A stretch of DNA of 64,000 bases, from the NCBI RefSeq assembly GCF_026151205.1, contig NC_087072.1:10020169-10084168 (forward strand). The letters are read 5' to 3'. The notes under the pieces were generated by a model. That model ran no database searches. It saw nothing but the letters and a program-made list of their open reading frames with translations, and was not told the origin of the DNA. The translations under genes were made by a program, and so were the position numbers. The DNA comes from Bolinopsis microptera. Lineage: Eukaryota > Ctenophora > Tentaculata > Lobata > Bolinopsidae. Of the stretch, positions 2,041-59,785 are shown in pieces (the stretch's first letter is position 1; each line of letters begins with the position of its first letter).

Positions 2041-3999
2041 CTGGTTGCCGATGAGGGCAGTAAGATTTGGAGCACATTGATTCATTTTCTCTCCGAGGTA
2101 AGTACTTAGTTTGGACCTGTACTCGTTAAGAGCTATGATACGAGTCGTGAAACTCTGGATGTTGATCAAATCTATTGGTGAGATGTCCATTCCTGAGATA
2201 TTTCAATGTTAGGACAAAATTTTATGTCAGACATCAAATTAGATTAGTTACGTAATGCAACGACCTGATCAGTTAAAATAGTAATTCCACGAACCCATGC
2301 TGATTTTGGCACTCTCTACTACGGCCCTTGCTTTAGCACTGTCCATAATAATATCCTCCAACTTTACCACACTCTCTTCCGACAATTCCTGGGTATCGCT
2401 AGCGTTAGAACATCAAACGTTACGTAACAAAAAGTCTTAGTTTAAATTACTTGTCACGATCACAGCTACGGGCGGTAATAAACATTTGTTCTAAAAAGTA
2501 TCGTTCTACACATTCAAAGCTCTCCAAAAGCGAACTTTCGACTGAAGAGAGGTTTCAATTGCTGAGTGCTTACCTTGCGGGACTTGATGAGACTGACTAC
2601 TTTAGCGTACATGACGTTATCAGGAACTATCTTTATGAGTTCTGGATAATGGTAGGAATACCATTCTCTGAAGTATGTTAATTATGTTAATTATGTTATT
2701 TATACAGTTAAGTGTACAGTCTAGTGGTCATGTTGTTGGATCAAGATTTGAATTGCTTAACATGAAATTTATTGAAATTGCTAAGAATCCTTAAATTGGA
2801 TAGATTTAAGGAAATTCTCTTCACATTCAAAGCGCAGCTCCAAAAAATCGTTTGAGTTAGAGCACACAATTTTATGGATATGCTCTCGTATGTTGTAACC
2901 TAATTCCAGATTAGTATATTATGAGAAGAAACCAACCTAAGCCTCATGCTGAATGTATTGATGTCCTTGTCGATCTGGTCCAGTAGAGCAATACTCTGGA
3001 TGATCATGTTGTCTACTCTGTGTACGTTAAACTTGACCTTGCACCGACTGTAACTGTGACCGAGACCAAGCTGTGCTTTCTCACAGTTCTTGGCGGATAG
3101 ACCCTCCACAAACTTTGCGAAATGGAATCTGAAGACGGGGTTGTAAAAATTGAGATTTAAAAACATGGATGATTTTATTTGAAATTAGTCAGCAGCTAAA
3201 ACAGGACTTGAATAATAAATTATAGCACATTATTAGGGAACGACATTTTCATAGTTACTTATAGGTCAGAAAAATTGTATCGTATTTTGATCTTTAAAAG
3301 AGACTAAGTTTGTTGAACTAAATTAATACAACCCATCATGTAGGTGTACCTGATTCCACGCATGATTTCAGCTGTGACGCCCCCGAAGTCGCATTCAATA
3401 TCTAGGTCCTCAGTAATTGAACCTGCGATCCTGCTGTCGGTTACACCCAGCTTACCCGCCTTCTTGGGCAACATCGTCTCCAGAAAGTTCTTTAGGTCGT
3501 CGTGTACAACTCCTTAAGTTTTTAGAAGTTTCAGGTTTGTACTTAATTTGGATTGCGAAACAAAAGTTACATCAATTTGTCTTTTTGGTGGACATAGAAT
3601 ATCGAGACACCACAAATTCATCCAAAGTGACGTTAAATTAATTGAGTTTATACCTTCAGAAATGGAGTTGATATTTTCCAGGGCGTTTGCTCCAGATTTG
3701 AAAGGTAGGAAAGACTCTAGTTTTACTACTTTACCAAACTTTGCCAAATCCAATACTGCTGCTTGAACCTGAAAATTGAAAATAATAAAACTTACTGCGT
3801 TTCCTTATAACTTTTATCAACATTACGATATAAAGTGTGATCATTTATCATGATACTTCAACCAACCAGTCCTAGCGTACTTTTAAAGAAAGCTGCTGTA
3901 ATCTCAAACCTGGTCTAGTTGAGATCCAATGTCCTCCATGGCGATGTTTTTGAACAGTGCATATCCAGCTGCATGTTCGTAAAGAATGTATGCCGACAT
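2041..3999 (-). CDS. NOP56: NOP56, box C/D snoRNP core protein (5' 300 codons, 7 exons)
   Basis: NOP56 is a core subunit of box C/D snoRNPs, which guide 2'-O-methylation of rRNA in the nucleolus. Seven exons chain in phase: 3999-3910, 3768-3654, 3512-3350, 3128-2937, 2667-2574, 2388-2295 and 2192-2041. The start [16 protein letters not shown] matches the NOP56 N terminus. Diagnostic stretches are [25 protein letters not shown] and [10 protein letters not shown], followed by [10 protein letters not shown] and [10 protein letters not shown]. The junction SEG/VVHDDL and the [12 protein letters not shown] segment favour NOP56 over its paralogue NOP58. Translation stops being traceable at IGNQ (about residue 300), where the RNA-binding half of the Nop domain and the basic tail should follow. 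Introns seen are 95-270 bp. It lies 185 bp downstream of RPS12 on the same strand. Identity is secure; the 3' end is missing from view. Confidence 0.92.
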
Positions 4000-4068
4000 C
4001 CTACACTATGTTTTAGATTAATAGGAACACTTATTGTACAATTTTTCTATTAAGATTGATAGTAACAG

Positions 4069-4074
4069 TTTATT
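4069..4074 (-). terminator. Candidate AATAAA polyadenylation signal of RPS12
   Basis: On the minus strand AATAAA occurs about 110 nt after the RPS12 stop codon and about 70 nt before the NOP56 start. A cleavage site downstream of it would leave almost no room for a NOP56 promoter, which is why the spacing is noteworthy. The hexamer is common in AT-rich DNA, so the call rests on position only. Confidence 0.35.
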
Positions 4075-4184
4075 CGAATAACGGAGGCTGTAAACGGTAC
4101 AAATTAGGAATTAACTTGACAATCAGTAAAACACGGTCGTTAAATAAGATTAAAAAGTCTGAAGTTCAATGTGATCGGATCAAA

Positions 4185-4595
4185 TTAAGCCTCTGGGACG
4201 ACGGTACGCTTGAAGTGGTCGTTGATGATGTCAAGTGCTTGACTTTCTGTTCCAAAAGCGTGGATAACAGCACAACTGCATCGTACCACCTTCCTTGCCT
4301 GACCCTCCTTATCAATCTTACACAAACCAGTCCACTCTCCCAGTTTCTTGGCGTCATCTATTTTGATGAGGTTAATGCCATGTTCTCGGCAGAGGGCTTC
4401 CACCAATTTCAGGATATTCTTCTCATCGGTACTCTCAGCCAGAACACACAGGAGAGCTTCGCGTTTGTCGAGCCTCTTGACACTTTCTCGGAGACCTCTG
4501 GTTACACCGTCAACGATGATAGCGTTCTTAAGCGTCTCTCTGAGAGCTTCCATCAGACTCATAGGCCCATCTCCAACAGCAGGTACTGCAGCCAT
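4185..4595 (-). CDS. RPS12: 40S ribosomal protein S12 (eS12)
   Basis: This 136-residue protein is a small-subunit ribosomal protein of the eL8/eS12 family, close to the usual ~132 residues. Characteristic stretches are [40 protein letters not shown] and [16 protein letters not shown], with the conserved RKVV-CSC segment after them. The coding sequence is an uninterrupted exon; the start [10 protein letters not shown] is the only in-frame methionine giving the expected N-terminal length. A 5' untranslated exon may exist, since an AG follows a pyrimidine-poor tract upstream, but I cannot fix it. NOP56 follows 185 bp downstream on the same strand. The opposite-strand open frames across this region are shadows. 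Confidence 0.95.
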
Positions 4596-4639
4596 TTCTC
4601 TACTGTTTTCCTTAATGGGACCTATGGGTGATGATTTTT

Positions 4640-7600
4640 AGGTCAACATCTATTATAACTACTAACCAGCATAACCGTGTTAGGCACAGCTATCAATGTT
4701 AAGAATAATATTCAACAAAGATTAAATCAAATAGAGATAAGTCAGATGTATTCATTCAATGATTGAATGTGCCAAACTAGTCAACAAACAAGAACATCCA
4801 ACACACACATAATGTGCTGTGATTAACAGCCGCGAAGTGCAAACAATCAGATGATCTATCAAACTTTCTGAAAAGTCGTGCACGGACGCTCGATTCTAGA
4901 TTCGCCTGTGACCATAACACATAGCGTACGTATGCATGTGCGCGGCGTCTTGGATCTTATCAATAATTTTTCAGGACTGCGAATACAAATTTTGATTTTA
5001 AATTATCTTAACGATGAAAAGAATATAACAACTATACTTAATTTCATATCATAAATAAAATTGACAAGCAATTTTTGATTGTAGGCAATATTATATTGTT
5101 TATTGTTCACTAAATGTTGATTAGATAAAGTTAAGAATGTAAACTTAACTTGACGAACGTTTTGTGTCCCTTTCTTTACATACACTAAACACTTTGATTG
5201 CCAATAATTTTAGACTGAGTAGTTTTAAGCACGTATTATTCATTACAAAATCATTCATTTGAAAGATCAATGCCAAACACTTGAATTTAAAATGTGCCGC
5301 GCACGCACACAACTTACTGGAATTCAATCACGATGAATAAAATTCTTAAAATCGAGCGTCGCGACGAATTCTAGCTAGTCTTCTAGAGCGATTCTCCGTG
5401 AGTCATCTGGAGCGATTCTCCGTAAGTCATCGTCTAATCTTTTAAAATAAACTGAATGCTCACATTTTACATTTCCGTAGTTTTTATATCACTCTGACAA
5501 ACAGCAGTACCTTGGGTGATCCAAAACCCATAGGCCATGTCTTCCTGAAGGAAACTAATTACCAGTGTGACTTATTTTTGTAAATTTTCATAGTTCTGGG
5601 GTTTAATTGGTTAATAGCTGATAGGTAAATTTTGGTCACGTGTCTAAATAAGTATGCCACCAGAATCCATATCCATTCACCCCTATGTAAAACTTTGTTA
5701 CATAGTTCCTAAGTGTTCGTATAGGGTTCAAAAGTGGCTCCGCTTCATTGAGGCCGTTGGTGTGGCCTGTGGGGTGTTATTGGAGGGCTTTATCATGTCA
5801 AGTTTTGCTACTGCATACATCTGATTCCAAATATCGGTAATTTTGAACAAGCATGTTAGTTATTATCGTGCTTTAAGATTGCTGTTGAGCACATAGATGC
5901 CACTGTTTGCCGTTTGGTAAGTCTCACTCCCTTTCTATTTGAGCTGTTTAGTTCACAGAAAAGCAGATATGGACTGCTTTAAAACTTTTATTTTGGAAAA
6001 AGTTTGTTTCAGTAACCATTGAGAACCAGTGGCCTTTTGTAACTGCATCTTCAACCTCAGTTTCATTTTGAAACGTCTAAGAGACTGGTATAGTAAATTA
6101 TTTTGTTACGTAAACATTTTTATTAATATTTTGAAGGGTAGTAATTGTTTAGATCTTAAATTTATACGAAACTATTAATGCTTTTAATAGCTTGTTGGCA
6201 GGGTAGAATTTGTTAGGTGTGTTTCTGAAAAAAAAATGTCTGTTGGAAATTAAAGTTTTTGATGATCTCTACTATTCATTGTTATTAAAATGCTCATTGT
6301 AGCCAGTTATTTTAAAAGATTTTCATCATCATCATGCCTTTTGCTATTCTGGCATCCTCAGGTCACATGACCAAACCATCTGAGTCTACCTGCTCGTACT
6401 TAAATATCAACAGGGGAGATATTGGCCTGTTTGAGTTTACCAGTGTAGATACATGATAGTTTCATTTAATTTTCTGGTAAAGAAAATATGGTCATTTGTT
6501 CGTACTCATTTACAAAATAACGAATGTAGAATAAATAAACTGTGGAGTTAACATACTCCATTCATTTCTAAATTTATTATTTCATAATGTATTATCATTA
6601 TCATCTTAATAAATGTTACTGGTTATGTTGGAATAGGATGTGTACTCAGCTCTGTAGTCTTTTAATTCCTTCAGAATACAATCTTTACTGATTTTATTGC
6701 TCCCATCTTTCTACCATAATTTTCAATAACATAACATGAACAGGTGTTTTGCCTTGTTAAAGAAAGTGGTTTAGTACCCAGTATCATGTTTTTCATCAAC
6801 AATAAGATGATTGGTCAGTTTGACAGTATGTCCACGAATCTCATGCTGACAGAACCGGTAGCGAGCCTGTTATATTATAATACGGTTTCTGTGATCATTT
6901 CCTATTGTATTTTTATATACGTGATACACTGACTAACAGTATGTTCCCCCAGGCCATGTTTCCTTTATGATGCTCTGTCATGGTTCAGCGCAGTGAATCA
7001 ACCTCTCTTTCCAACAGTATAAAGACAGTTTACAGTGTTGTAAGTAAAATAAATTCACAATTTATGTCCTTCAAATTGAGCACTCACCAGCCAAGAGCTG
7101 AATAGCTTTTCATTAAATATACAATATTTGTGCTACATTGGTTGTCCAGACAGTAGTATTTTCTCCCTATTAACAATTCTACTGTCTGTGGTAGAGTTCG
7201 TTTTTATAGATTCGGGAGAAAATTACCACAGATCTGTTGCCTCGTTTAGAAGTAAGGTGGGCGGCGGCTCACTAGGTCCACTGGGCACTGGGCCAATCGG
7301 TGAAAAAGGGTTCAGAAAAGTCAATATTGGCACTCGAGTCCTAGATCTTGTCGACAGTGCACTGGGTCTTTTGAGCTGCCGCCTGCCATCCTTCAGCTTC
7401 TGTCGAATAAAATTATCATAAATCCAAATTGAGGCAATCAGCCGACGTGCAGCTTTTATGGTTATCTATGATATTATGTATAACCTGTAATAAATATCAA
7501 AATTTAAATTTGTATTCCTTAAAATTTGTATTCCTTATACGGAATACTCCTTGGGCGTTTGGACATGTAATGTCTGTAAAGTGAAGTCATGTAATCAGTG

Positions 7601-7846
7601 CTCAAGCTCAGGCCATAGGGTTAGTGACTAAGTTACGGCCATATTAGCATAAAGATACTTAGGTCTAGAAAATTGCGTACTATAATGTATAATGCAAACC
7701 AAGGTCCAATCCTAATCCTTGCCATACTCTAAAAGTTTGTAAAACTGTCGGCCTAAGCATTGATTATATAATGATATTATTAAAAGGGAATTAGTTGAAC
7801 ATAAAATGGATCTTTTATTTGATATTTCATGATATTTTCCTTTCAG
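4640..7846. other. Intergenic/intronic stretch between RPS12 and DEAF1 exon
   Basis: No exon could be supported. It probably contains the RPS12 promoter near its left end and the N-terminal exons or long introns of DEAF1 near its right end, because the SAND-domain exon at 7847 begins at a splice acceptor and lacks the protein's N terminus. A roughly 24-bp unit containing GAGCGATTCTCCGT is present twice in tandem at about 5382-5430. A CpG-containing segment with GCGTACGTATGCATGTGCGC lies at about 4925-4945. Confidence 0.4.
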
Positions 7847-9142
7847 AGTTGTGGTAACAAATCGGGCACGTTGCATCCTGATCGATTGGGAAGTGGAAGT
7901 AAAGGAAAGTGTATTCACTGTGACAGCTCTATCACAAAATGGTTCACTCCTAAAGAATTTGAGAAATTCGGTGGCCGTGAAACCTCAAAGGACTGGAAAA
8001 GAAGTGTAAAACTCGATGGAAAACCATTTTACTTTTTTCTGAATAGTGGCGAACTGAAAATTCATGCTTTCAACTGTTACTGTCAGATTTGTAGCGGACA
8101 AGATGGTGGGGAAAGTAGTGAAGGAACACCTGGACCTATCAAGTTTTTCTGTCCACCTAACAGGAAGAGACGGGCTGAGGATGAGCTTGCCATGCCATCA
8201 ATGGTATCTCGCAGTCAGTCTGCAAGTGCCACATGTTCAGGATATGAGACGGATCCCAATGATATGAGCCAGTTGTTGACTCTCATTAGCCAGTCTATTG
8301 ATAACGCTAACAAAAACGATGAAATCAAGAATAGTGATGAAGACGGTGAAATTCCGGAATGTTCAGGACTGGCGGTTGCTCCACAGCCGCAGATTTCACC
8401 AGAGATGGAAAATCCAGGAATCATGCTAAGTCCTAGTTCATCTGTTCCTAGTAACGCACATATTCACAAAGGCATCAAAATGACTATCGATCAGATTTCC
8501 CGGAAGACTAAAATTATAGAGGAAGGAATCTCAAGTTTAGCTGGTTTATTATCGGGCATGAAGTCTGAAATATCGTCTCTGAAACATTTGATGAATCAGT
8601 ATGAGAAAAGCACTGTTAGTCCAAGTCGTGCCTTTTCCAGCAACTTCAAAAGTGCAATAACAGACACTTTGGCTCAAGTCCTGAGCCAATCTGAACTTAA
8701 TAAATCAAGAAAACGTGAAGACACGGGTCACTGTGCAAACTGCAACAGACCAGCTCCTTTCAAGTGCGGGCGTTGCAACCTCGTCCGGTACTGTTCAGAG
8801 TTCTGTCAGCAGAGGGACTGGCCGATACACAACAAAATCTGTGGAGCAAAAATACCTGCCACTCCGGAGAGGATGAACCAGGATTCTTCTAGTGCTGATG
8901 AAGTCAAGGACCGCTCCTCTACTAATCAGGTTTTTATTCTGGAGGAGGAATGCATTGAGGAGATGGCAGAGACGCCGGCTACCAGTGCAAGTGATGATAG
9001 TGTGGCATCTAATGGTGTCAGCTCAAATGGACTAGACGTAAATCACGTAGAATCTAATCCTGTTGATTGTGAAACTGAAGTGGTCGAGATAAAAGTTGAA
9101 AATAATGACGAAGCATGTGATGACACAGTTGACAATGGATAA
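7847..9142 (+). CDS. DEAF1: DEAF1-like transcription factor, SAND and MYND domains (3' exon)
   Basis: This 3' terminal exon begins right after a TTTCAG acceptor, in phase 0, and runs 431 codons to TAA. It opens inside a SAND domain: SCGNKSGTLHPDRLGSGSKG, then WFTPKEFEKFGG and the DNA-contacting SKDWKRSVKLDGKP with the KDWK motif, ending near SGQDGG. A basic NRKRR nuclear-localisation-like stretch follows. The middle is acidic and Ser-rich with a short helical segment. A MYND zinc finger starts at CANCNRP and continues through CGRCNLVRYCSEFC to the His/Cys pair HNKICG, with the full set of ligands. SAND followed by C-terminal MYND is the DEAF1 architecture; MYND normally recruits corepressors. 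The roughly 200 residues before the SAND core were not located upstream. The acidic tail after MYND is longer than in vertebrate DEAF1. Confidence 0.88.
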   Translation, partial: SCGNKSGTLHPDRLGSGSKGKCIHCDSSITKWFTPKEFEKFGGRETSKDWKRSVKLDGKPFYFFLNSGELKIHAFNCYCQICSGQDGGESSEGTPGPIKFFCPPNRKRRAEDELAMPSMVSRSQSASATCSGYETDPNDMSQLLTLISQSIDNANKNDEIKNSDEDGEIPECSGLAVAPQPQISPEMENPGIMLSPSSSVPSNAHIHKGIKMTIDQISRKTKIIEEGISSLAGLLSGMKSEISSLKHLMNQYEKSTVSPSRAFSSNFKSAITDTLAQVLSQSELNKSRKREDTGHCANCNRPAPFKCGRCNLVRYCSEFCQQRDWPIHNKICGAKIPATPERMNQDSSSADEVKDRSSTNQVFILEEECIEEMAETPATSASDDSVASNGVSSNGLDVNHVESNPVDCETEVVEIKVENNDEACDDTVDNG

Positions 9143-27400: not shown

Positions 27401-30400
27401 TAAGAATAAACATCACTCATTTTCACCTGAATGCAAGAAGATAAATCTTTTTCGAGTGCAATCGCTTAGAAAGGTGTAAACAGTTTTATTAACAGTTTTA
27501 TTGCTCATAAGCCACACCAGACTGTTAGTGCAAGTCTCCAGTTCCATTGCCATGTTGTCCAACAAACATTGTACCTGAACAGAAAGTTTCATACTACACA
27601 GTAGACCGCTCTTCTTTCAGCAGTTTTCAGCACTTTCGGCAGTTTTCAGTTTTTAGCCACGGATACTAGCTTTTATAATGGTCACGTTTTTTATTGATAA
27701 TAATTTATAGCTGACATTAATTAACAAAATCGTTCATGTGAAATTGTCGATCGTAGGAAGAGCAAAGTTCCATACCACTTGTTGTATGAGATTGTCATCT
27801 TTGAAGTGAACACATCCCTCTAAACCGTCATATAGCTGTTGTATTTGTTGTGGAGCTGCGATAGGGGTCCTTCCCGTGGCTACACTTATCATTTCAAGCA
27901 TCATGTTTACTCTGTTTCTCTGTTCCACCAACTCTGGCATAGTAACTTCCAATATTTTCTCTATCTGTTGGTATGGCGCTCTGAAAATGTTTGGGTATTA
28001 AAGGGTTTCTGAAAAATAAACATCGTCCGAATAATCCACATAAGAAGTAGTGTATATTTTAAAATGCGATGTTACTAAAAGATTACACAGTATCAGTGAA
28101 AAAGAATTAAAACAGAAACAAAACTAAATGTTTATTGTACATATATCCAGAAACTAAATGTTTATTGTTTAATGTATATCCAGAAATAAAAAGTAAAAAG
28201 TGAATAATGTTACGACTTACTGATGACACAAACAGAAAGTTTGGTTTAAGTAAAGATCCCTAAAAACATCAAGCAGCGTCGTCGGCAAGAAATCTGAAAA
28301 AAATCCCTGTTTTAACAGTTGAATAGATCGAATAAACATTCACCTAGCTAAGCAATATCTACGTTCAAAATGTTCTATTATTTTTAACGGCCAGCTTACT
28401 ACATAGTGTATTTGTCATCGTCGCTTGGGTTGCCACTACCAAATAATCATACCGCATGCCAGGTTATACATCGAACTGATAAATCGATCGGTAATATTTT
28501 CAAGAACTTTTGCTAATAATGATATTTGAAGAAATAAAACTCCTTAATTTAGATAATCCACGAACCTGAGTATTTTTCTGCGGGTATGAAATGGTCGAAG
28601 AATGAAAGAGCGAAGGAAATCAATGAAGCTAAGAGGGTTGGAGAAAGGGTCGAGATAACTGAGGTTTTACTCCACTTCCTGTACACTGATCTGACACTCT
28701 CCCCAAGAAGACCTGGGGAAGATGTACCTTTATTGTTTCAGTCTATTTGTGAAATTTTAAATAAATCATTTGGAATCTAGGGCAGCCACCTTAGTAATGG
28801 ATAAAAAATCACGTTACATTTTTGTAATTGTGTGATTAATTCTAACATGAAATGTTCTCGAAGGAAGTTGAGCAGAACCCTACCGAAAGTGTGCTGTAGT
28901 TGACTCGTGTTGACATTGAACGTAAAGGGTGCTGTGTTGAGGGTGCTAAGAAATTTAGAGATTTTCATCAACAGAGCTGTGAGAAGCTTAACTGACAGTT
29001 CGTCGTCACATCTTTTATAGACTGGCAAAACACACTTCAACGAGATAAAGAGTAACCTGAAACAAAATGGTACAGTACTTGTTTAGTGAGCTGTGTGCTT
29101 ATTAGGCTTACTTAAGAAGCAACTCAAAACAGAGGAGTATACATAATTACATGCCGGATTACACTACAATTAATTTAGGCATTAAGATAAGGATTAAGAT
29201 AAGGATTAAGATCAGGATTAAGATAAGGATTAAGATAAGGATTAAGATAAGGATTAAGATAAGGATTAAGATAAGGATTAAGATAAGGATTAAGATAAGG
29301 ATTAAGATAAGGATTAAGATAAGGATTAAGATAAGGATTAAGATAAGGATTAAGATAAGGATTAAGATAAGGATTAAGATAAGGATTAAGATAAGGATTA
29401 AGATAAGGATTAAGATAAGGATTAAGATAAGGATTAAGATAAGGATTAAGATAAGGATTACGATAAGGTTGTACTTGGGTAAAGATAGGACGGGCTTGTC
29501 GATGGGATGAGGTGCTGCGTTCAGTTCGGTTTCTGATTTGCTCCACTTTGGAATGCTGATCCAACATTGGGTTAAGAGAGATATCCTTACCTCCAAACAC
29601 TCAAACATTCTGAAGATTGTTCATTATCTATTATTTTAGTGAGAGATGATCCGAATTATTTTCTTTGCTAAATCGACGTTGTTTCATTTAAAGGACAATA
29701 ATTGAATCCCTAGAATAAGAATCCCTAATGTGTCTTGGCAACGGTAAAAAAACACATCAGTAACATCTCAAAATGTTCACTTAGTAACTCATAACAAGCT
29801 TTGCACGCTAATGAGTCCATTTAAATCCATCAAATATTGTTTGATTCCTTGAACGGCGAAATGCATTAACTTATGATTCAATGCTCCTCAGAGCACAATG
29901 CTTCTGAAGATATCGCCTAAATTAAAGTTAACTTAATTTGAAGTAACGTGGATGGTACCTAATGGGAGCTGAAAGGTTACCACTCCTATAAAACAAAAAT
30001 AAAATCACCTATTTAAGGAGTCAGTCCACAGTTCGATTTCATTATTTTTAGAGCTTGCGACTTTAAAGTTATCGAGCCCTTTATTGATGTTATGATTGTT
30101 CTCTTGGCAGTTGTCACAGTTTTCTTTGCCAATGGTAGCAGTGCCCAACGTGGTAGAGGTCCTCCAGTTGATGCCATCGATGAAAGATGCACGGAGTTGT
30201 GCAAAAAAGAGCTACAGAATAGTGGTGTTGCGGACAGGAATGGTGAAGCTCAATGTAAAAGAATGTGTACTGAAAGATTAATAGAATGGCAAAAGATTTA
30301 CACCAAAGGTAAACCTTGTATGGAAAATTGTGAATCTGGATGTCATACCAAGAACTGCAGAAAAGAGTGTAAAAATAAGTGCTTTACTGAATTAGATCTT

Positions 30401-34357: not shown

Positions 34358-34445
34358 TTTATTGGGGGGGGGGGTGTCATGTCCGTCTATGTCCGCCTAT
34401 GTCCTGTCCTTTTTGGATTCTATGAGACACGGACGTGTTTTTTGG

Positions 34446-34618
34446 GACATTGGCGGACACGGACGGACATTGGCGGACTCGGACGGACATTGGCGGACTC
34501 GGACGGACATTGGCGGACCCGGACGGACATTGGCGGACTCGGACGGACATTGGCGGACCCGGACGGACATTGGCGGACTTGGATGGACATTGGTGGACAT
34601 TAGCGGACATTGGTGGAC
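34446..34618 (+). repeat. 20-bp minisatellite, ACATTGGCGGACTCGGACGG
   Basis: Eight to nine units of a 20-bp repeat, alternating between CTC and CCC at one position. The same array, reverse-complemented, lies near the right end of the second element copy (48616-48783). Its position next to one terminus is therefore a conserved part of the family. Confidence 0.85.
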
Positions 34619-35067
34619 ATTAGGGGGGGGGGGGGCTCATGTTATTTTTTGTCCGTTTTTGTCCGTTCAATTTTGTCCGTTTTCAGAAATAGGGTACCGA
34701 ACGGACAAAAACGGACAAAAACGGACAAAAATTGTAACTTTTGATTTAAATTTTCTCCACAATTTGTAACAGGCTATTTGCAGAAATGGGTAGCCCGGTT
34801 AATGACCATGGTCCTTTCTCAAACTTTTAATACTCAATTAGGTACTAAGAATAACATAAAAAGGGATGAAAAGGGAATTTTTTTATGAAATATGTCATGT
34901 AACAACTTTTCCATATTATTATTACTGGAGAGTGAAACTCTGTTAAGCCAAAAGATTCTTGAGCACATTTTGAGTCAGACTCAAATACGCTTAAAAACAT
35001 TTTAGTATAACAATAAATTGTGTAAACAATAACACCAACAATAATTATAAATTGAACAAATTATTGA

Positions 35068-37915
35068 GGGATGAAAGTGAGGAAGAGGAGGAGGGGGACT
35101 GAGGAGGGGGGACTGAGGAGGAGGAGGGGGCTGAGGAGGAGAAAGAGGACTGATGAGGAGGAGGAGTCAGGAGGAGGAGGAGAAGAAGAAGGACTCGGGG
35201 GAAAAGGCTCGGGCCTGAGGGGGAGGGGGGAGGGGGGACTGAGGAGGTGGGGGGGATAGGAGGGGGGAGGGAGGTGGGGGCAGGAGGAGGGGAGAGGAGG
35301 GGGAGGATGAGGGGAGGAGGGGACTGAAATAACTAAAAAAAATGAGGAAACCAATCGACTGAATAGGAATAAGGGGAAAAAAAAAAAAAGAGAAAAAGGG
35401 GAAGGGGGAAACAAAAAAAAAGGGGAAGAAAAGTAAAACTGAGGGTTTAAGGAGGGTACTGGAAGGACTAGGAGGGGACAAGAACAGGAGGGAGGGAGGC
35501 GGAGGGCTGAGAGGTGACTGATGAGTAAGATGAGGAGAAGGAGGTGATGAGAAGGATGAGGAGGACTAAGGAGAAGGAGGAGAAGAAGGAGGGACTGGTG
35601 AAGAGGATGATGAGGAGGAGGAGGAAGGACTAATGAGGAGGAGGAGGAGGACTGAGCAGTAGGAGTAGGAGGAGGACTGAGGAGGGGAGGAGATAGAGGA
35701 CTGAGGAGGATCTGAGGATCAGATGTACCCAGGAGGAGGAGGAGGAATGACCCTGGAGGAGGATATAGGGGGAGGAGGAGGACTGAGGAGGAGGGACTGA
35801 GGAGAAGGAGGAGGAGGGACTGAGGAGGAGGACTGAAGAGGGGGGACTTGAGGAAGAGGAGGGGAGGCGGAGGAGGATTGAGGAGGATGACTGATAACTG
35901 GTGAGCAATGACGAGGAGGGGAATGAGGTGATGAGGAGGATGAGGAGGACTAAGGAGGAGGAGGAGAAGAAGACGACTGGTGAAGAGGATTGATGAGGAG
36001 GAGGACTGATGAGGAGGAGGAGGAGGACTGAGGAGGAGGAGGACTGAGGAGTAGTAGTAGGAGAATGACTGAGGAGGGGAGGAGGAAGAGGACTGAGGAG
36101 AATCAGGATGACCCAGGAGGAGGACCCAGGAGGAGGAGGAGGCGGAGGACTGAGGAGGATGACTGAGGAGGAGGAGGACTGAGGAGGAGGAGGAGGAGGA
36201 CTGAGAAGGAGGAGGAGGAGGACTGAGAAGGAGGAGGACTGATGAGAACTGAGGAGTTGGAGTTGGAGGACTAAATAGGAGGAGGAGAGGGATTGGGGGA
36301 GGACTGAGGAGGACTGAGGAGGAGGAGAACTAAGGAGAAATATGAGGAGGATGAGGACTGAGGAGGAGGAGGACTGAGGATGACTGAGGAGGATGGCTGA
36401 GGAGGATGACTGAGAGGGAGGAGGAGGAGTAAAACTAAGGAGGACTGAGGAAAGGAGGATGAGACTGAGGAGGACTGAAGAGGGGACTGAGGAGGAGGAG
36501 GGGAGGCGGAGGAGGACGACTGATGAGGAATGATGAGGAGGGAAGGAGGTGGATGAGGAGGATGAGGAGGACTAGGGGAAGGAGGAGGAGAAGGAGAAGG
36601 AGGACTGGTGAAGAGGATTGATGAGGAGGAGGAGGAATGATGTGGAGGAGGAGGAACTGAGGAGGAGAAGACTGAGGAGTAGGAGTAGGAGGAGTAACTA
36701 AGGAGGGGAGGAGGAAGAAGAGGAGGAAGAAGAGGGGAAGGAGGTGGATGAGGAGGATGAGGAGGACTAAGGAGGAGGAGGAGAAGAAGGACCTGTGAAG
36801 AGGATTGATGAGGAGGAGAACTGATAAGGAGAGAGGAGGACTGAGGAGGGGGAGGACTGAGAAGTAGTATAGGAGGATGACTGAGGAGGGAGGAGGAAGA
36901 GGACTGAGGAGAATCAGGATGACCCAGGAGGAGGACCCAGGAAGAGGAGGAGGCGGAGGACTGAGGAGGATGACTGAGGAGGAGGAGGAGGAGGAGGACT
37001 GAGGAGGAGGAGGACTGAGGAGTAGTAGTAGGAGAATGACTGAGGAGGAGGACTGAAGAGGGGGACTGAGGAGGAGGAGGGGTGGTGGAGGAGGACGACT
37101 GATGAGGAATGATGAGGAGGGGAAGGACTGTGGAGGAGGAGGACTGTGGAGGAGGAGGACTGTGTAGAGGAGGAGGACTGAGGAGTAGGAGTAGGAGGAG
37201 GACTGAGGAGGGGAGGAGGAAGAAGACTGAGGAGGATCAGGATGACCCAGGAGGAGGACCCAGGAGGAGGAGGATCAGGACTGAGGAGGACTAAGGAGAA
37301 GGAGGAGGAGAAGGAGAAAGAGGACTGGTGAATAGGATTGATGAGGAGGAGGAGGACTGTGGAGGAGGAGGACTGTGGAGGAGGAGGACTGTGTAGGAGG
37401 AGGACTGAGGAGTAGGAGTAGGAGGAGGACTGAGGAGGGGAGGAGGAGACGACTGAGGAGATCAGGATGACCCCAGGAGGAGGACCCAGGAGGAGGAGGA
37501 TCAGGACTGAGGAGGACTGAGAAGGAGGAGGACTGAGGAGAACTGAGGAGGAGGAGGAGGATGATCAGGAGGAGGAGGGGGACTGGGGAAAGGACTGAGG
37601 AAGAGGAGCTGAGAAGGATGAGGAGGAGGACTGAGGAGGAGGAGGACTAAGGGGAAGGATGAGGAGGAGGGACTGAGGACTGAAAAAGAAGAAGAGGATG
37701 ATGAAAAGGAGGGGACTGGGAGGAGGACTGGGGAGGATGGAGGAGGGCGGGGAGGAGGACTGGGGAGGGGGACGAGGGAGGGGGAGAAGGAAGACGAGGA
37801 GGAAAGGACAAAAAGGGGAAAAGGAGGGGAGGCCCCAGGAGGGGGCCCCAGAAAGGGGATGGGGGGAGAAAAGGGGAGGGGAGGGGAGAAAGGAGGTGGA
37901 GAGGGAGGAGGAACA
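35068..37915. repeat. 2.85-kb polypurine tract (GGA/GAG/ACTGAGGAGG-based)
   Basis: Nearly every base on the plus strand is A or G, with scattered ACTGAGGAGG-type words giving irregular higher-order repetition. It contains no credible coding sequence; the long Ser/Pro/Leu or Gly/Glu/Arg open frames across it are by-products of composition. Long homopurine-homopyrimidine mirror repeats can adopt triplex (H-DNA) structure and are hard to sequence and assemble, so the stated length may be inaccurate. Confidence 0.9.
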
Positions 37916-39397
37916 TCTAAATGTTCTTCCATTTTGATTTTTTGTCCGTTTTGTCCGTTTTTGTCCGCTCTATTTTTGTCCGTTTTTGAAAATATAGGGT
38001 ACGAAAGGGACAAAAAACATGAGCCCCCCCCCCCCCCCCACTTTACGGACAAACTTTTGAGGACGAAGAACTGAAAGGGTACTAAAGAGACTGAGGGGAT
38101 GGCTGAAAGGGATGGTGAGGGGAGGGGGGAGATGAGAAACTGAGGGGGATGACGGGGGGGGGAAAAATCGGGGAAGACCCAGGGGGGGAGGAAGGAGGGA
38201 CCCTTTAAAGGGGGCCAGGGGAGGGGAGGAACAGAGGAACTGGGGAGGAGGGGGACTCAGAAGGGGGGACTAGGGGGAGACTGAAAAGAAGGACTGGGGG
38301 GAGGTGAGGGGATGGCTGAGGGGGAGACTGAGGGGAGGAAGGAGGGGGAAGAGGAGGAAATGCTCAGGAGGGGGGACCAAAGGAAGAGGGGGAGGACTCG
38401 GGGAGGACCAAAGGGGGGAAAATTTAGGAAATAAAGGGGGTTGGAGAGAAATGGGGAGGAAAGGGAGGGACTGAATAGGGAGGAGAAGGGGGGGGACTGG
38501 GAGAGGACTGGGGGGGAGGAACTGTGAAAGGATGGGAAGGGGGACCCAGGAGGGGAGGACTAAACCCGAGGAGGAAAGGAGGGGACGATGAAAGGGTGAA
38601 GGGGGACCCGGGGAGGGGGAGATGAGGCCCGGGGAAAGGGGGGAGGAAAAAGAGGAGGGGGACCCGGGAGGAGGAGGACCCAGGGGAGGGGGACTGAGAG
38701 ACTGAGGAGGAGAGGAGGACTGAGGAGGATGGTTGGGGAGGATCGGGAGGGAAGGAGGGGAGGAGGAGGACGAGGGGGGACTGAAAGGAGGGGGAGGGGG
38801 AGGAGGACTGATAGGAGGAGGAGGGGGGGAATTTTAGGGGGGCCTGAGGAGGAAAAGAGGGGGGATGGGGAAAGATGAGGAGGAGGATGGGACCTGGGGA
38901 GAAAGGGGAGGCCCAAGGGGACCCAGAGGGGGCCTCGGGAGGAGGGGAGGAGGGGGAGGGGGAACTGTTAAACTGTGAGGGGGCTGAGCGGGGGAAGGGG
39001 GAAAGAGGGGGGAAAGGAGGAGGGGAGGGGAGACTGAAAGCGGGAAGACAGAAGACCCCGGGGAGGGGGGAGGAAAGTGGGGGGAAAGCATCTAAATGTT
39101 ATTTTCCATTTTGTCCGTTTTTGTCCATTTTGTCCCGTTTTTGTCCGCTCTATTTTTTGTCCTTTTGAAAATATAGGGTACCGAACGACAAAAAACATGA
39201 TCCCCCTATAAACAGCATAAATTGAACATTTATTTTAGCAATTTAGGGTGTCCATTAATGTCCGCCTAGTCCGCCTATGTCCGCCTATGTCCGTCTATTT
39301 CCGCCTATGTCCGCCTAGTCCGTCTATGTCCGCCTATGTCTGCCTATGTCCTGTCCTTTTGGATTCTATGAGACAAGCGGACATAGACGGACGTGAC

Positions 39398-39434
<37 letters not shown>

Positions 39435-39711
39435 TTTATTGACCCGGAAAGGCACCAGGGGCAGACATCCCAACACCAGTGCGTTGAGACATAGTGTTGG
39501 TCTGCTTCAGGACGTGTTAGATCCTAGAGAAGCCGCCATCCCCTCTACTGCTTTAGCTCAGCGGCAGCATGAGCCCTGGTTTCCTGCCACATTGGCACCT
39601 CTGAAAGTACAGAAAAGTGGTGGATTTCGGGGTCCAGGATACTCCCTCTTTGTTCTTTATGGTGGTAATATTTCTCTGAGATGTTTGCAGAGTCTTTATT
39701 TCATGATCTTT

Positions 39712-44990: not shown

Positions 44991-47900
44991 ATGAATAGTT
45001 CAGAGATAGGGGACTTTAAGAGCCTTGAGGGTGCACGTGATACATGTTCAAACCTGCTCACTCAATGGTTAGACGATTTGCAGTTGCTGTGGGGCGAAGT
45101 TGGCATCCCGCCCGAACAGCAGATCACTAGAATAAAAGTGGTAAGTTGGACGTCATGAAAACTTTCTTCATATTGGACTAACCTGATTTTGTAGATAAAA
45201 ATATGTATTATAATATATATATAATACGTTGAAAAACCTGTAGAACATTAATTAACGTTAATTCCTTGAATGATAATATTAATAACGACAATAATATTGA
45301 TATTCATCAGGTATATGAGAATTTGTCTGAACTTTGTAGAGCAATGGTAGATGAGGAAAAGTCCCGTAGAGATGGCTACATAGAGAACATCGCAAAGTGT
45401 AGAGCTGAATGTCAGAGACTAGCGGAGGAGCTGGAGACCTCCTTTGAGGAGCCACCAGAAGATTATACAGTCCTTAGAAAGGAGAAAGTTCTTAGAAATC
45501 AGGTAGATTTGAAAAGTGTTATGTTTGTACAATTTATAGACGACAGTTGGATATTTCTATATTGCCTCTTGATTGCATGTCCTTTCATCAGAAAGTTTCG
45601 TGTGTGCTTTTGATTAAAAATTGATTTTAAGATTATTGTCTAGACCTGCTTTCATCGGAAAAATGTGTTTTCATTGAAAGTGATTATCGTATGCAGAATC
45701 CATAAGAAATGGGACAAGTTGTGGTCGCGTCTAAATAGACAATAGACATTCAAGTTTAACGAATATTACCATTAGTAATATTTAATATTACCGTAAGTAA
45801 TATTTATAGACATGCATAAGTTATACATTTCTTGTTGATGTGCGATATACGAACAGCGATGTCCCAACTAACCACAGATCCTTGCTCAAGTTCCATTATG
45901 ATGAGGGTCCGTTTACATATTACGTATCGTACGTAATCACTAGCGGTTTCGAAAAGATGAATCATGACGCTAACGTATTTTCTACACAATAGCTGTTTAA
46001 AAATAATTACGGAAGGAGAGGGCCGTTGTGTAAGGGAGGGGGTGTCACGTCCGTCAATGTCCGCTTGTCTCATAGAATCCAAAAAGGACAGGACATAGGC
46101 GGACATAGACGGACATAGGCGGACATAGGCGGACATAGACGGACATAGACGGACATAGGCGGACATAGGCGGACATTAATGGACACCTAAATTGCTAAAT
46201 AAAATGTTCAATTTTTGCTGTTATAGGGGGATCATGTTTTTTGTCCGTTCGGTACCCTATATTTTCAAAACGGACAAAAAATAGAGCGGACAAAAACGGA
46301 CAAAAATGGACAAAAATGGACAAAAATGGAAATAACATTTAGATGCTTCCTCCTCCTACTCTTCCTCCTCCTCCCCCTGGGTCTTCCTGATCTTCCTCAG
46401 TCCTCTTCCTCCTCCCCTCCTCAGTCCTCCTCCTACTCCTCCTCTTCGTCCTCAGTCCTCCTCATCAGTCCGCAACAGTCCTCCTCCTCAACAGTCCTCC
46501 TCCTCCTTCTGAGTCCTCCTCCTGGGTCCTCCTCCTGGGTCCTCCTCCTGGGTCCTCCTCCTCCTCTTCATCCTCCTCCTCTTCCTCCTCAGTCCTCAGT
46601 CCTCCTCCTCATCCTTCTCCTCATCCTTCTCCTCAGTCCTCCTCCTCAGTCCTCCTCCTCCTCCTCTTTCCTCTCAGTCATCCTCCTCAGCCATCCTCCT
46701 CAGTCCTCCTCAGTCCTCCTCAGTCCTCCTCCTCAGTCCTCCTCCTCCTGGGTCCTCCTCCTCTTCATCCTCCTCCTCTTCCTCCTCGGTCCTCAGTCCT
46801 CCTCCTCCTGGGTCCTTCTCCTCATCCTTCTCATCAGTCCTCCTCCTCCCCAGTCCTCTCCCAGTCCCCCTCCTTCTCCTCCTCCTATTCAGATTTCAGT
46901 CCTCCTCCTCCTCCTCCTCCTCAGTCCTCCTCAGTCCTCCTTCTCATTTCTCCTAAGTCCTCCTCCTGAGTCCTCCTCCTGAGTCTTCCTCCTCTTCCTT
47001 CTGAGTCCTCCTCCTGAGTCCTCCTCCTCCTCCCTCTCAGTCATCCTCCTCAGTCATCCTCCTCAGCCATCCTCCCCAGCCATTCTCCTCAGCCATCCTC
47101 CTCAGTACTCCTCAGTCCTCCTCCTTCTCAGTCATCGTCAGTCCTCCTCCTCAGTCCTCCTCAGTCATCCTCCTCCTCCTGGGTCCTCCTCCTCCTCCTG
47201 GGTCCTCCTGGGTCTTCCTGATCCTCCCCAGTCCTCTTCCTCCTCCCCTCCTCAGTCCTCCTCCTACTCTTCCTCCTCGTCCTCAGTCCTCCTCCTGAGT
47301 CCTCCTCCTGGGTCCTCCTCCTGGGTCCTCCTCCTGGGTCCTCCTCCTCCTCTTCATCCTCCTCCTCTTCCTCCTCAGTCCTCAGTCCTCCTCCTCATCC
47401 TTCTCCTCATCCTTCTCCTCAGTCCTCCATCCTCCTCCTCAGTCCTCCCCCAGTCCCCCTCCTCCTCCTCCTATTCAGTCCTCCTCCTCCTCAGTCCTCC
47501 TCCTCTTCCCTCTCAGTCATCCTCCTCAGCCATCCTCCTCAGTCCTCCTCAGTCCTCCTCCTCAGTCCTCCTCCTCCTGGGTCCTCCTCCTCCTCTTCAT
47601 CCTCCTCCTCTTCCTCCTCGGTCCTCAGTCCTCCTCCTCCTGGGTCCTCCTCCTCATCCTTCTCATCAGTCCTCCTCCTCCCCAGTCCTCTCCCAGTCCC
47701 CCTCCTTCTCCTCCTCCTATTCAGATTTCAGTCCTCCTCCTCCTCCTCCTCCTCAGTTCTCCTCAGTCCTCCTTCTCATTTCTCCTAAGTCCTCCTCCTG
47801 AGTCTTCCTCCTCTTCCTTCTGAGTCCTCCTCCTGAGTCCTCCTCCTCCTCCCTCTCAGTCATCCTCCTCAGTCATCCTCCTCAGCCATCCTCCCCAGCC

Positions 47901-50900
47901 ATTCTCCTCAGCCATCCTCCTCAGTACTCCTCAGTCCTCCTCCTTCTCAGTCATCGTCAGTCCTCCTCCTCAGTCCTCCTCAGTCCTCCTCAGTCCTCCT
48001 CCTCCTGGGTCCTCCTCCTCCTCCTCCTCCTGGGTCCTCCTGGGTCTTCCTGATCCTCCCCAGTCCTCTTCCTCCTCCCCTCCTCAGTCCTCCTCCTACT
48101 CTTCCTCCTCGTCCTCAGTCCTCCTCATCAGTCCTCAACAGTTCTCCTCCTCCCCAGTCCTCCTCCTCCTCCTGGGGCCTTTTCCTGGGTCCTCCTCCTG
48201 GGTCCTCCTCCTCCTGGGTCCTCCTTCTCCTCCTCAGTCCTTCTCCTCCTCCTCCTCAGTCCTCTTCCTCCTCTTCCTCCTCCTCCTCCCTCTCAGTCAT
48301 CCTCCTCAGCCATCCTCCTCAGCCATCCTCCTGAGTCCTCCTCCTTCTCAGTCCTCCTCCTGAGTCCTCCTCCTGAGTCATCCTCCTCAGTTCTCCTCCT
48401 CCTCCTCCTAGGTCCTCCTTCTGGGTCCTCCTCCTCCTAGGTCCTCCTTCTGGGTCCTCCTCCTCCTCCTCCTCCTGGGTCTTCCTGATCCTTCTCCTCC
48501 CTCTCAGTCATCCTCCTCAGTCATCCTCCTCAGTCATCCTCCTCAGCCATCCTCCTCAGCCATCCTTCTCAGCCATCCTCCTCAGTACTCTTCAGTACTC
48601 TTCAGTCCTCAAAATGTTTGTCCGCTAATGTCCACTAATGTCCGCTAATGTCCACCAATGTCCATCCAAGTCCGCCAATGTCCGTCCGGGTCCGCCAATG
48701 TCCGTCCGAGTCCGCCAATGTCCGTCTGAGTCCGCCAATGTCCGTCCGAGTCCGCCAATGTCCGTCCGTGTCCGCCAATGTCCCAAAAAACACGTCCGTT
48801 GTCTCATAGAATCCAAAAAGGACAGGACATAGGCGGACATAGACGGACATGACACCCCCCCCCCTGTAAGATGGCCAAATAGTGATTATATAACATAATA
48901 TTTTAATATGTACGATTTCAGGTGAAACAGTTGATAAAAGAGCGTCAATTGAGGCTGCGTGAAGCAATATCTCTGCGAACACAAGAGGGGGAGTTATGTG
49001 CACGATTGGGGAGGATTCCTGAGTACATTCAATCAGACACAGTACTGACCAAGGAGCAAGTCAAGGAGGCTAACACTCGCATCGGGTAAATAAACGGGTT
49101 CTTTCTTTTTTATTTCATCTCTATGGGAAGTGGATATTTTTAAGGGATTTTGTACCATGTTGTCGTTGCTTTGTGATAACATTGTATAGTATTCAGGACC
49201 GTAGCACAGTTACACACAATTAGGGAATTTGGTGAGTTTATTTGTCGTAAACTTACTAATAATGGTAATTGGAATGTAGTAATTTGAGATATAAAACAAT
49301 TCTCTACAATCAATGTACCCACTAAATACACAGTCTTGCAATTGTAAATATTTACTGATTTACAGGTTGGTAACTTTATGTTACCAACCTGGGAAATAGT
49401 CCGATTTGTGACTGATAAATTCTAATTAACTTCCGTGTATCAGTTCTTTCTAGAGGAATCTCTTGAAAAATACATGAATTCCCTAGAGAGTATACTTCAA
49501 CACACGACACATAGGTTTACAATGTTCTATTGCCAACTCAACGTGTTATAAATCGCAATGAGAAATAAAAATATTCGTATATAAGTATAACTATCTCATA
49601 TGGCCATACATTAAGGTGGCATGGCAACAGATTGGGTTAAATTTCTTAACGACAGGTTGTGAAATATGAGTGGCTTGAGTGCGTGTGATCTAGTTGATGT
49701 GTAAATTAATGTAATCCTTTGATCCAGTGTTCACAATTAACTCTGAGTGTGACTAAACATGGCCATAGACGTTTATTTGGTAATTCTTATTGTGATGGAT
49801 TAAAAATAAAAAGACATCTTTGCTAGCATTTTATGTCCATTCTAAAATCTAACTGTACGTCGTACGCGTAGGTCTGTTAAATGATAATGTCTGCAGGTTT
49901 CTGACAGCAGAGAAGAACAAGAGAGATATCAAACTAGCGATAGCAGCTAAGGATATCCTAGAGTTGTGGACTGAGCTGAATATCAGAGCACGTAACGACA
50001 GGGAGGAACACATTGAGTCTGGTAACTTGGACTCATTCCAGCTTTCTAACGAGAACATGCAGTGGTTAGAACAGATGAAACAGAGCTTATCGGTTAGTTT
50101 TATCTTACTTTATATTTCCTGTTCTTTTCCGGTTTTTCACATATTCCCCGCCATCACTTATAATATTAGTATAGTATAGCAAATTTTATATATTTCTCAA
50201 ATCACAAGCTAAACCGTCTTTGATCTGTTGAGTGTTTGAGGTTTGTTCGTGGTTACTTTGACTGGTTACCAGATGACTACAGTTAAAATAATTCAGCTTA
50301 TTAAACCTGATGATATCATCTGTTATCAATAAGCAATGCTTATAGTCTATCGACCTTGTGATTATTTTAACATCATTTCTTACGCACAACGTCAACCATC
50401 ACATGATGATAATAGCTATTAACTGACGTTAGTCCATGTTATCAGATGACCCTGGATGATAACAAGAGATTACAGAAGAGTCTCATGACCAAGGTGCAGA
50501 GTTTGTGGACCAGGATGGAACTACCAGAGGAGGATCAGAAAAAGTTTTTAGAGCAACACACTGGATATTCTGATGCACTTATTGTCAAGCTTAAAGAGGA
50601 GGTCAATAAATTTACTGATTCTGATCACATTTCTTTGAAGTGGTCAATTTTCGTAATTCTTGAACAATAAAAGCTTTATTTGATTACATTTACCATTTAC
50701 GATCGAATCGAATAAAGAAAATTCAAAATTACCTGTTCCTAATTGCAGGTCCGACGGCTAGAAGAGCTGAAATTACAAAACTTGGAAAGATTCATCAAGC
50801 TGACACGAGACGAAATAGAGAAGTACTGGGAGCTTATGTTTTACAGTGAAGAAGACAAGCGACTATTTACACCTTACTTCAGTGAGACTGTCGGGGAGAA

Positions 50901-59347: not shown

Positions 59348-59785
59348 CAGTGGCGTAACGAAGGACCCCGCTGTGCGGGGGGGGGGGGGTCAAAATCGTC
59401 GTTTGAATGTGGGACAATTTTGAAAAACTTATCTGAGGTTACTGGGCCTTACTGGGCCGCGCTCAGCCTGTCATTCCGCCAAATCTTTATTCGTATGTTA
59501 ATGAACATAATAGCCTGGGGTCCTCAGGTAAACTGGGCCGCGCTCAGCCTGTCATTCCGCCTAATCTCTATTCGTATGTTTATGAACATGATAGCCTGAG
59601 GTCCCCAGGTAAAACTGAGGTACTAGCTAAACTGCACGTTTTGCTCTAGAAACACACTTTTTTAGAGATTTTACCGGCGTATTCTCTAAGATCGCCTAAT
59701 TTGTTCAATTTTAGGGAGGGGCGCCAATACAACAGGGGGGCACATTTTCGGCGGGGGGGCGCCAACAGCTAACGTTACGCCACTG
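59348..59785. mobile_element. 438-bp MITE with 13-bp TIR (CAGTGGCGTAACG)
   Basis: Perfect 13-bp terminal inverted repeats: CAGTGGCGTAACG at 59348 and CGTTACGCCACTG ending at 59785. CAGTGGCG-type ends are typical of hAT-related nonautonomous elements. The 8-bp flanks (CATAAGAA and CCCGGAAA) do not match, so the target duplication is lost or the ends are misjudged. The interior holds a G run of about 14, an 81-bp unit twice in tandem (starting 59451 and 59532), and GGCGCCAA words near the right end. The 81-bp unit is related to part of the 589-bp repeat near rotatin. Confidence 0.7.

Follow-up and report, generated by a model that had tools for sequence, protein, structure and literature searches.

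A probable family of nonautonomous DNA transposons with G-run ends and a purine-rich satellite core in Bolinopsis microptera

At one locus in Bolinopsis microptera, kilobases of purine-rich DNA lie between inverted G-run ends, which raises the question of whether the whole is a mobile unit and, if so, how the satellite came to be inside it. We consider it very probable that the locus belongs to a recently active nonautonomous transposon family (family 1), moved in trans, with the satellite as a passenger.

Layout of the two copies in the window

The window, a 64,000-nucleotide stretch of the B. microptera assembly, contains two family-1 elements, W1 and W2. A first-pass annotation had noted inverted G-run ends with the same TTTATT hexamer outside both, and we confirmed these in W1, where the left end consists of G11 at 34364-34374 followed by TGTCATGTCCGTCTATGTCC, and the right end of GGACATAGACGGACGTGACA followed by C36 at 39399-39434. 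The ordered interior was borne out in that a 20-bp array, a GTCCG array and (GGA)-rich blocks lie within the element, while the purine blocks proved to be about 80% purine and not homopurine. The features are as follows.

34358..34363, no strand: TTTATT, left target site duplication (TSD) of W1, read in the sequence
34364..39434, + strand (purine-rich strand): W1, family-1 element, 5071 bp
34364..34444, + strand: A end of W1, terminal inverted repeat region, G11 then TGTCATGTCCGTCTATGTCCGCCTATGTCCTGTCC...
34445..34618, + strand: 20-bp array of W1, unit GGACATTGGCGGACTCGGAC, 8.7 copies
34623..38039, + strand: probable nested family-2 element, G13 CTCATGTT...TTTGTCCG / GGACAAAAAACATGAG C16, from a reading of the sequence, with similar termini elsewhere
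35052..37910, + strand: purine-rich satellite block 1, 16-bp GGAGGAGGAGGACTGA and GAG periods
38045..39089, + strand: purine-rich block 2, W1's own (outer element)
39090..39207, + strand: GTCCG/CGGAC module of W1, resembling a family-2 terminus (...GGTACCGAACGACAAAAAACATGATCCCCC)
39258..39351, + strand: 10-bp GTCCG array of W1, unit ATGTCCGCCT, 9.6 copies
39352..39434, - strand: B end of W1, inverted terminus, final GGACGTGACA then C36
39435..39440, no strand: TTTATT, right TSD of W1, read in the sequence
46029..46034, no strand: TGTAAG, left TSD of W2
46035..48864, - strand: W2, reversed family-1 element, 2.8 kb, with ends, arrays and purine core as in W1
48865..48870, no strand: TGTAAG, right TSD of W2

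Copies, duplications and empty sites

The first-pass annotation had proposed a nonautonomous transposon that captured or expanded a GGA satellite, and the copies, duplications and empty sites described here, together with interiors bounded by these termini, support that proposal. Searching the genome with the terminal 25-mer, with up to 2 mismatches allowed, gave 400 + 412 = 812 matches, against 0 for the reversed pattern that served as control; from these ends we infer roughly 400 family-1 copies. Among the 100 ends listed, 84 formed 42 facing pairs 1.2-6.5 kb apart, and for C1 there were 32 facing pairs among the ends listed where 0.66 were expected. We examined 22 copies (20 fetched, all from C1, together with W1 and W2), every sequence coming from one assembly. 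Both family-1 ends were matched in all 22, and element length ranged from 1804 to 6030 bp.

Exact 6-bp duplications, distinct from copy to copy, flanked 20 of the 22 (18 of the 20 fetched and both window copies); L066 had no duplication, and that of L053 contained one mismatch. In just 1 of 462 comparisons was a left hexamer identical to the right one from a different copy. Targets were varied and AT-rich, and 16 of the 20 duplications had the form NNTANN, the remaining four being without the central TA, which is expected at a frequency of 0.167 for AT-matched hexamers (binomial p ~9e-10). For six copies (W1, L047, L051, L054, L057 and L065) we located empty sites. In the case of W1, the joined flanks with a single TTTATT matched 39 uninterrupted genomic places at 97-98% identity; L047, L057 and L065 each matched one place and L054 matched 38.

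These observations bear on whether the copies were dispersed by segmental duplication, gene conversion or satellite spread instead of by transposition. The satellite does occur beyond paired ends: of the 20 satellite clusters in C1, among 100 places listed, nine fell at family-1 pairs, two at family-5 pairs and nine at neither, so that the purine satellite is not exclusive to family-1 termini. Against such dispersal, copies have their own 6-bp duplications and the hexamer is single at empty sites, and we therefore regard it as very improbable. Family 1 also spread recently, given that its ends are about 99% identical (mean pairwise identity 98.7-98.8% in 22 copies); the inner module averaged 97.6% (21 copies).

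The base accuracy of W1 itself looks poor, and the copy little polished. Its right module (~0.3 kb) differed from those of 20 other copies by a mean of 10.2 one-base gaps, compared with means of 0.9-2.5 for those other 20, and its core shared a mean of 4% of 21-mers with other cores, compared with 26-58% for the latter; the letters and block lengths of W1 are for these reasons doubtful. Collapsed or misjoined GA-rich reads might on this evidence have produced the block structure, but the other 21 copies agree in plan and ends, and clean duplications and empty sites also speak against it. An assembly artefact may thus account for details of W1 and not for the family, and as an explanation of the whole we give it hardly any credence.

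All frames of at least 110 aa in W1 and W2 were judged by eye to be repeat-derived, nor did any autonomous copy bearing family-1 ends come to light. L042/L072 was considered as a coding copy and set aside, its long frames being mostly satellite read through.

Purine core, nested element and exchanged cargo

Purine content of the core, oriented by end type, was 71-84% in all 22 copies. The longest pure-purine tract in W1 was 45 nt, and such tracts reached 45 nt at most in the five copies measured, so the terms "homopurine" and "H-DNA-prone" used at first pass were overstated. Family-1 cores shared a mean of 41% of their 21-mers, and 0 after block shuffling. L048 contains five internal modules, spaced 0.9-1.3 kb.

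We also weighed whether the core is kept for a benefit, with non-B DNA (triplex or GGA quadruplex) or chromatin aiding excision, replication restart or escape from silencing. Its retention in every copy examined, the 75 quadruplex-like GG motifs in W1 and the presence of the satellite in families 1, 2 and 5 are all consistent with this. Yet the pure tracts are short and element length varies from 1.8 to 6 kb, descent from one purine-bearing ancestor would lead one to expect shared retention without selection, and L072 has family-1 ends and a clean duplication around an unrelated satellite. We consider a beneficial core improbable, and prefer to see the satellite as a passenger.

L072 is an 8-kb copy with family-1 ends and arrays and the duplication ACTAGT, in which a 246/499-bp satellite replaces the purine core; beside the right array it continues past GTTATA, where family 1 has GGGGGATCATG. 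The cargo is exchangeable, since family-1 ends here carry a different satellite. L072 is tied to the locus L073 by a segment of 86% identity and by the 246-bp satellite; L073 contains a hAT-like frame of 411 aa (DUF4371, E 5e-7, which falls short of the Pfam cut-off). L073 was considered as pointing to a hAT partner for family 1 and rejected: the relative orientation of the satellite is opposite, and there is no G-run of at least 7 in the 5-kb L073 stretch. For the same two reasons we take what lies inside L072 to be captured DNA of hAT origin.

Nested within W1 there appears to be another element with G-run ends (34623-38039), flanked by ACATTA and ACTTTA (5/6 match). The purine block seems to have entered family 1 with another G-run element: a satellite-bearing second-family element would have landed beside the right array and brought the satellite with it. 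Thereafter the satellite may have grown and shrunk through unequal exchange, slippage or, by analogy, gap repair, which would explain the size range of 1.8-6 kb.

Related families and a candidate transposase

G-run ends and 6-bp duplications are common to at least three further families. Family 5 has G-run ends, the purine satellite and a multicopy ORF, present in 21 of its 23 end pairs, which is a candidate transposase fragment. Family-5 pairs of ~10 kb lie at C2:18976408-18986310, C9:15599302-15609454 and C10:17176740-17186731, and frames of 521 aa occur as well, for example at C13:6308360. The fragment had no match in Pfam, hAT included, and its pieces had none in PHROGs or NCBIfam; the PDB, searched by sequence, gave just three matches, at E 0.32 or worse, and neither the ORF fragment nor the terminus matched a viral collection. 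L071 was dismissed as a coding family-2 element, its two frames of at least 90 aa both being low complexity.

In the mechanism that we propose, a transposase supplied in trans would cut with a 6-bp stagger at NNTANN targets, and the two different GTCCG/CGGAC tandem arrays beside the ends may, by analogy, be its binding sites. The enzyme would come from the wider set of G-run-ended elements that this genome contains, among which family 5 may retain part of a gene.

Two readings of the wider group follow. Family 1 could be a nonautonomous relative of hAT6 and not a member of an undescribed group. Buster-type hAT elements have targets with TA at the centre, and most targets of family 1 fit this; the G-run termini are unlike the hAT terminal consensus, and the family-5 fragment, as noted, had no hAT match. 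Like family 1, hAT6 is reported to have 6-bp duplications (PMC12730594), and we hold this kinship to be possible, if doubtful. The other reading is an undescribed superfamily with G-run ends, NNTANN 6-bp duplications and a Pfam-unmatched transposase, its members carrying satellites passed between families by nested insertion; this we put forward very tentatively, as rather unlikely.

Discussion

Satellites carried on transposons are already known. With about 400 carriers, purine cores in the 22 copies examined, an alternative satellite between the same ends and a family-2-like module beside the core, satellite capture, growth and spread may be traced stepwise here in one genome, and the copies form a natural set in which to ask whether kilobase GGA-rich repeats slow replication or alter nearby chromatin. 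Should G-run ends and NNTANN targets turn out to mark off a group that has a transposase of its own, this would be a new DNA transposon lineage.

In having inverted repeats, fixed-length duplications and dispersed copies with empty sites, family 1 conforms to the nonautonomous TIR DNA transposons. Polinton/Maverick elements, for their part, carry polymerase and integrase genes. A literature search found no purine-core or G-run-ended transposon among the titles and abstract openings listed. MITEs are usually <500 bp and uniform in size (PMC2872659), whereas family 1 spans 1804-6030 bp (22 copies). Tetris/Galileo-type elements of Drosophila are nonautonomous, with inverted ends and internal tandem repeats that feed satellite growth, the satellite lying within inverted repeats (~220 bp) and extra repeats being proposed as transposase-binding sites (PMC4079207). 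Family 1 resembles them in its internal tandem repeats and differs in that its purine core is distinct from the inverted repeats and sits between GTCCG arrays unlike each other, and in its G-run ends and 6-bp duplications; Foldback (Tetris-type) elements have long TIRs of tandem repeats, and the family-1 arrays stand beside both ends with differing units (20 bp and 10 bp). As in (GTCY)n MITEs and Xstir, tandem repeats ride on a nonautonomous DNA transposon (PMC6947457), but family 1 carries kilobases of purine satellite, and in one copy its ends enclose another satellite instead.

IS3EU and GingerRoot share 6-bp duplications with family 1, but their termini are TA..TA (in GingerRoot occasionally TG..CA), as against GGGGG..CCCCC (PMC10045372; PMC12730594), so that family 1 agrees with IS3EU in duplication length and not in its ends. 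Ginger2 likewise has AT-rich targets around TA (RTATAY) and a TGT adjoining the end; it differs in its TGTNR termini and 4- or 5-bp duplications, compared with 6 bp in family 1, and G-runs are unmentioned in the extract (PMC2836005). Dada elements insert in small-RNA genes, and Dada-U6 and Dada-U1 are without TIRs, whereas family 1 has varied, AT-rich targets and clear TIRs.

Copy number, target duplications and empty sites of family 1

Two elements with G-run ends and a purine-rich satellite core lay in the window (C1:10020169-10084168), whose reading frames also matched the Pfam models for a 7TM receptor, SAND plus MYND, and ribosomal L7Ae/S12e, and which we therefore regard as animal DNA. 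We refer to these elements as family 1:

34364-39434, W1, family-1 element, with a copy of TTTATT on either side
46035-48864, reversed, W2, second family-1 element, with a copy of TGTAAG on either side

The first-pass annotation had read W1 as a nonautonomous TIR transposon that captured or expanded a GGA satellite, and the presence of many other copies was borne out genome-wide (264.65 Mb, 232 contigs): terminus GGGGGTGTCAYGTCCGTCTATGTCC gave 400 forward and 412 reverse matches with at most 2 mismatches, and the reversed control pattern gave 0. Among the 100 ends listed, which came from contig C1 and the beginning of C2, 84 formed 42 facing pairs less than 12 kb apart, spaced by 1209–6531 bp with medians near 2.6 kb; 32 such pairs were observed on C1, versus a mean of 0.66 when the ends listed were placed at random. 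From the end counts and spacing, we infer that the family comprises about 400 elements, which together make up near 1 Mb (0.4% of the genome).

We then compared W1 and W2 with 20 paired copies fetched from C1 (loci designated L0xx). Exact 6-bp duplications, distinct across copies, flanked 18 of the 20 as well as both window copies, the W2 duplication being called by eye one base past the automatic boundary, where the script gave three mismatches. The duplication at L053 contained one mismatched base, and L066 lacked a 6-bp duplication. A central TA was present in 16 of 20 duplicated hexamers (0.167 expected at equal AT content). Empty sites were searched with flanks joined at a single hexamer copy, using 15 flank pairs in the search that included W1 and L057 and 12 in the search that included L054, L065 and L047; counts refer to the 40 scored places per search, all of which were taken up by the two and three flank pairs named here, respectively. 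W1 itself matched at least 39 uninterrupted places (97–98% identity) and L057 at least 1 (98%), while L054 matched at least 38 (99%) and L065 and L047 at least 1 each (99–100%). The L051 target had an uninterrupted copy in a nearby inverted repeat, clean across the junction and with alignment differences elsewhere.

Conserved ends and variable cores

All 22 copies had both ends (A and B) and two arrays, one of 20-bp CGGAC units and one of 10-bp GTCCG units. Between the core and the 10-bp array sat a module built from TTTTTGTCCG and CGGACAAAAA repeats, each of whose two marker strings was detected in 21 of 22 copies. Pairwise identity of the ends was 98.7–98.8%. G-runs measured 7–32 and C-runs up to 36, that of W2 being interrupted. 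A G13 run also lay within another repeat (window 59377-59389), a related L071 sequence being without it, which suggests that growth of G-runs is also possible internally.

Because the cores had on average 41% of their 21-mers in common, we take them to be reshuffled descendants of one ancestral core. Five internal modules, 920–1264 bp apart, lay inside the single element at L048 (991-7030), which shows how such reshuffling would proceed: recent tandem growth within one transposon copy. The W1 core had a mean of 4% of 21-mers in common with the others, and its right module (~0.3 kb) averaged 10.2 one-base gaps in comparisons with 20 other copies, for which the means were 0.9–2.5. Many of the W1 gaps fell in homopolymers by eye, and the W1 letters probably reflect poor base accuracy in GA-rich DNA; the family-1 result is unaffected. 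Core purine content was 71–84%, and among five copies in which tract length was measured (W1, W2, L048, L061, L062) the longest pure-purine tract was 35–45 nt, so the H-DNA-prone tracts proposed as a possibility in the first-pass annotation are a weaker claim than stated there.

The L072 element (108-8109; C1:7609100-7619000), flanked by the duplication ACTAGT, combined family-1 ends and arrays with an interior of 246/499-bp tandem repeats. Conservation extends to the two ends and their arrays; the cargo is exchangeable. Two places related to L072 were found on C5 by search only (10170801 and 10640006). Separately, L073, which also contains the 246-bp satellite, carried a 411-aa hAT-like frame (504-1739, minus strand) with a weak DUF4371 match just under the Pfam cut-off (E 5e-7).

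Comparison with known transposons

Family 1 resembles hAT6 in its 6-bp duplications. IS3EU and Dada also make 6-bp duplications, and were ruled out by the termini and by the target and TIRs, respectively. Nonautonomous transposons carrying tandem repeats are a known kind, including Tetris (PMC4079207) and the (GTCY)n MITEs and Xstir (listed in PMC6947457). Judged against published descriptions, family 1 would be a new variant of this kind, set apart by its purine core, by a satellite that can be exchanged and by G-run ends found in several families.

Family 2 and a proposed origin of the core

A second terminus, GGGGGCTCATGTTTTTTGTCCG (family 2), gave 271 + 282 matches with at most 2 mismatches (control, 1 + 0), the majority of those listed being the GGGGGATCATG version. 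Of 39 family-2-type termini listed on C1, 29 lay within family-1 elements, and a family-2 element seems to be nested within W1 (34623-38039). Five loci were retrieved with the exact terminus: L068, L069 and L070 led into the satellite polypyrimidine strand, and L067 and L071 showed no run into the satellite. At the family-1 junction, ...AATTTTTGCTGTTATA is followed by GGGGGATCATG, versus ...AATTTTTGTTATATTTCGC at the corresponding junction of L072, from which we infer that the core would have been acquired through a family-2 insertion after GTTATA, one side of which was identified. L067 also held a mini-element of ~130 bp (288-418) that had family-2 termini and ended in G18/C23 runs; it lacked a purine core, and no matching flanking duplication was seen.

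The satellite 21-mer GAGGAGGAGGACTGAGGAGGA gave 2157 + 2017 matches (control, 14 + 7). The 100 places listed (first 5.5 Mb of C1) formed 20 clusters: 9 between paired family-1 ends, 2 between paired family-5 ends and 9 outside both kinds of pair. Of these last nine, one (4624544) lay just within a lone family-1 end of L052, and two were close to a family-2-type end at 5469918.

Families 3–5 and a candidate transposase

Three further families have G-run ends and 6-bp duplications in common and differ in subterminal sequence, as judged from one copy each, which was read either in full or at its two termini:

L070, 71-3757, family 3, duplication AATGGA
L053, family 4, duplication ATTATC
C1:4450621-4455528 (L074/L075), family 5, duplication AAGTTT

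Family-5 ends numbered 26 + 27 (at most 3 mismatches; control, 0), 47 of 53 being perfect. In this family (L074-L076), the purine satellite lies next to a multicopy ORF without a Pfam match; searches of Pfam, NCBIfam, PHROGs and PDB gave nothing usable. Its C-terminal part had 82 genome matches and its upstream part 66. Among 47 high-identity matches selected from these (at least 70% identity, short pieces counted), 45 sat within family-5 end pairs and the other two (C6, C8) close to single ends, and 21 of 23 end pairs contained a match. On position only, this ORF is a candidate transposase. It was broken or shortened by satellite at the two loci seen so far, and three pairs of ends spaced by ~10 kb are possible complete copies. 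Distant relatives (38–40%) occurred in 521-aa frames at six places. Elsewhere in the window, a tandem repeat at 29151-29600 gave rise, in several frames, to long reading frames of repeated motifs (IKIRIKIR, LILILI, NPYLNPYL).
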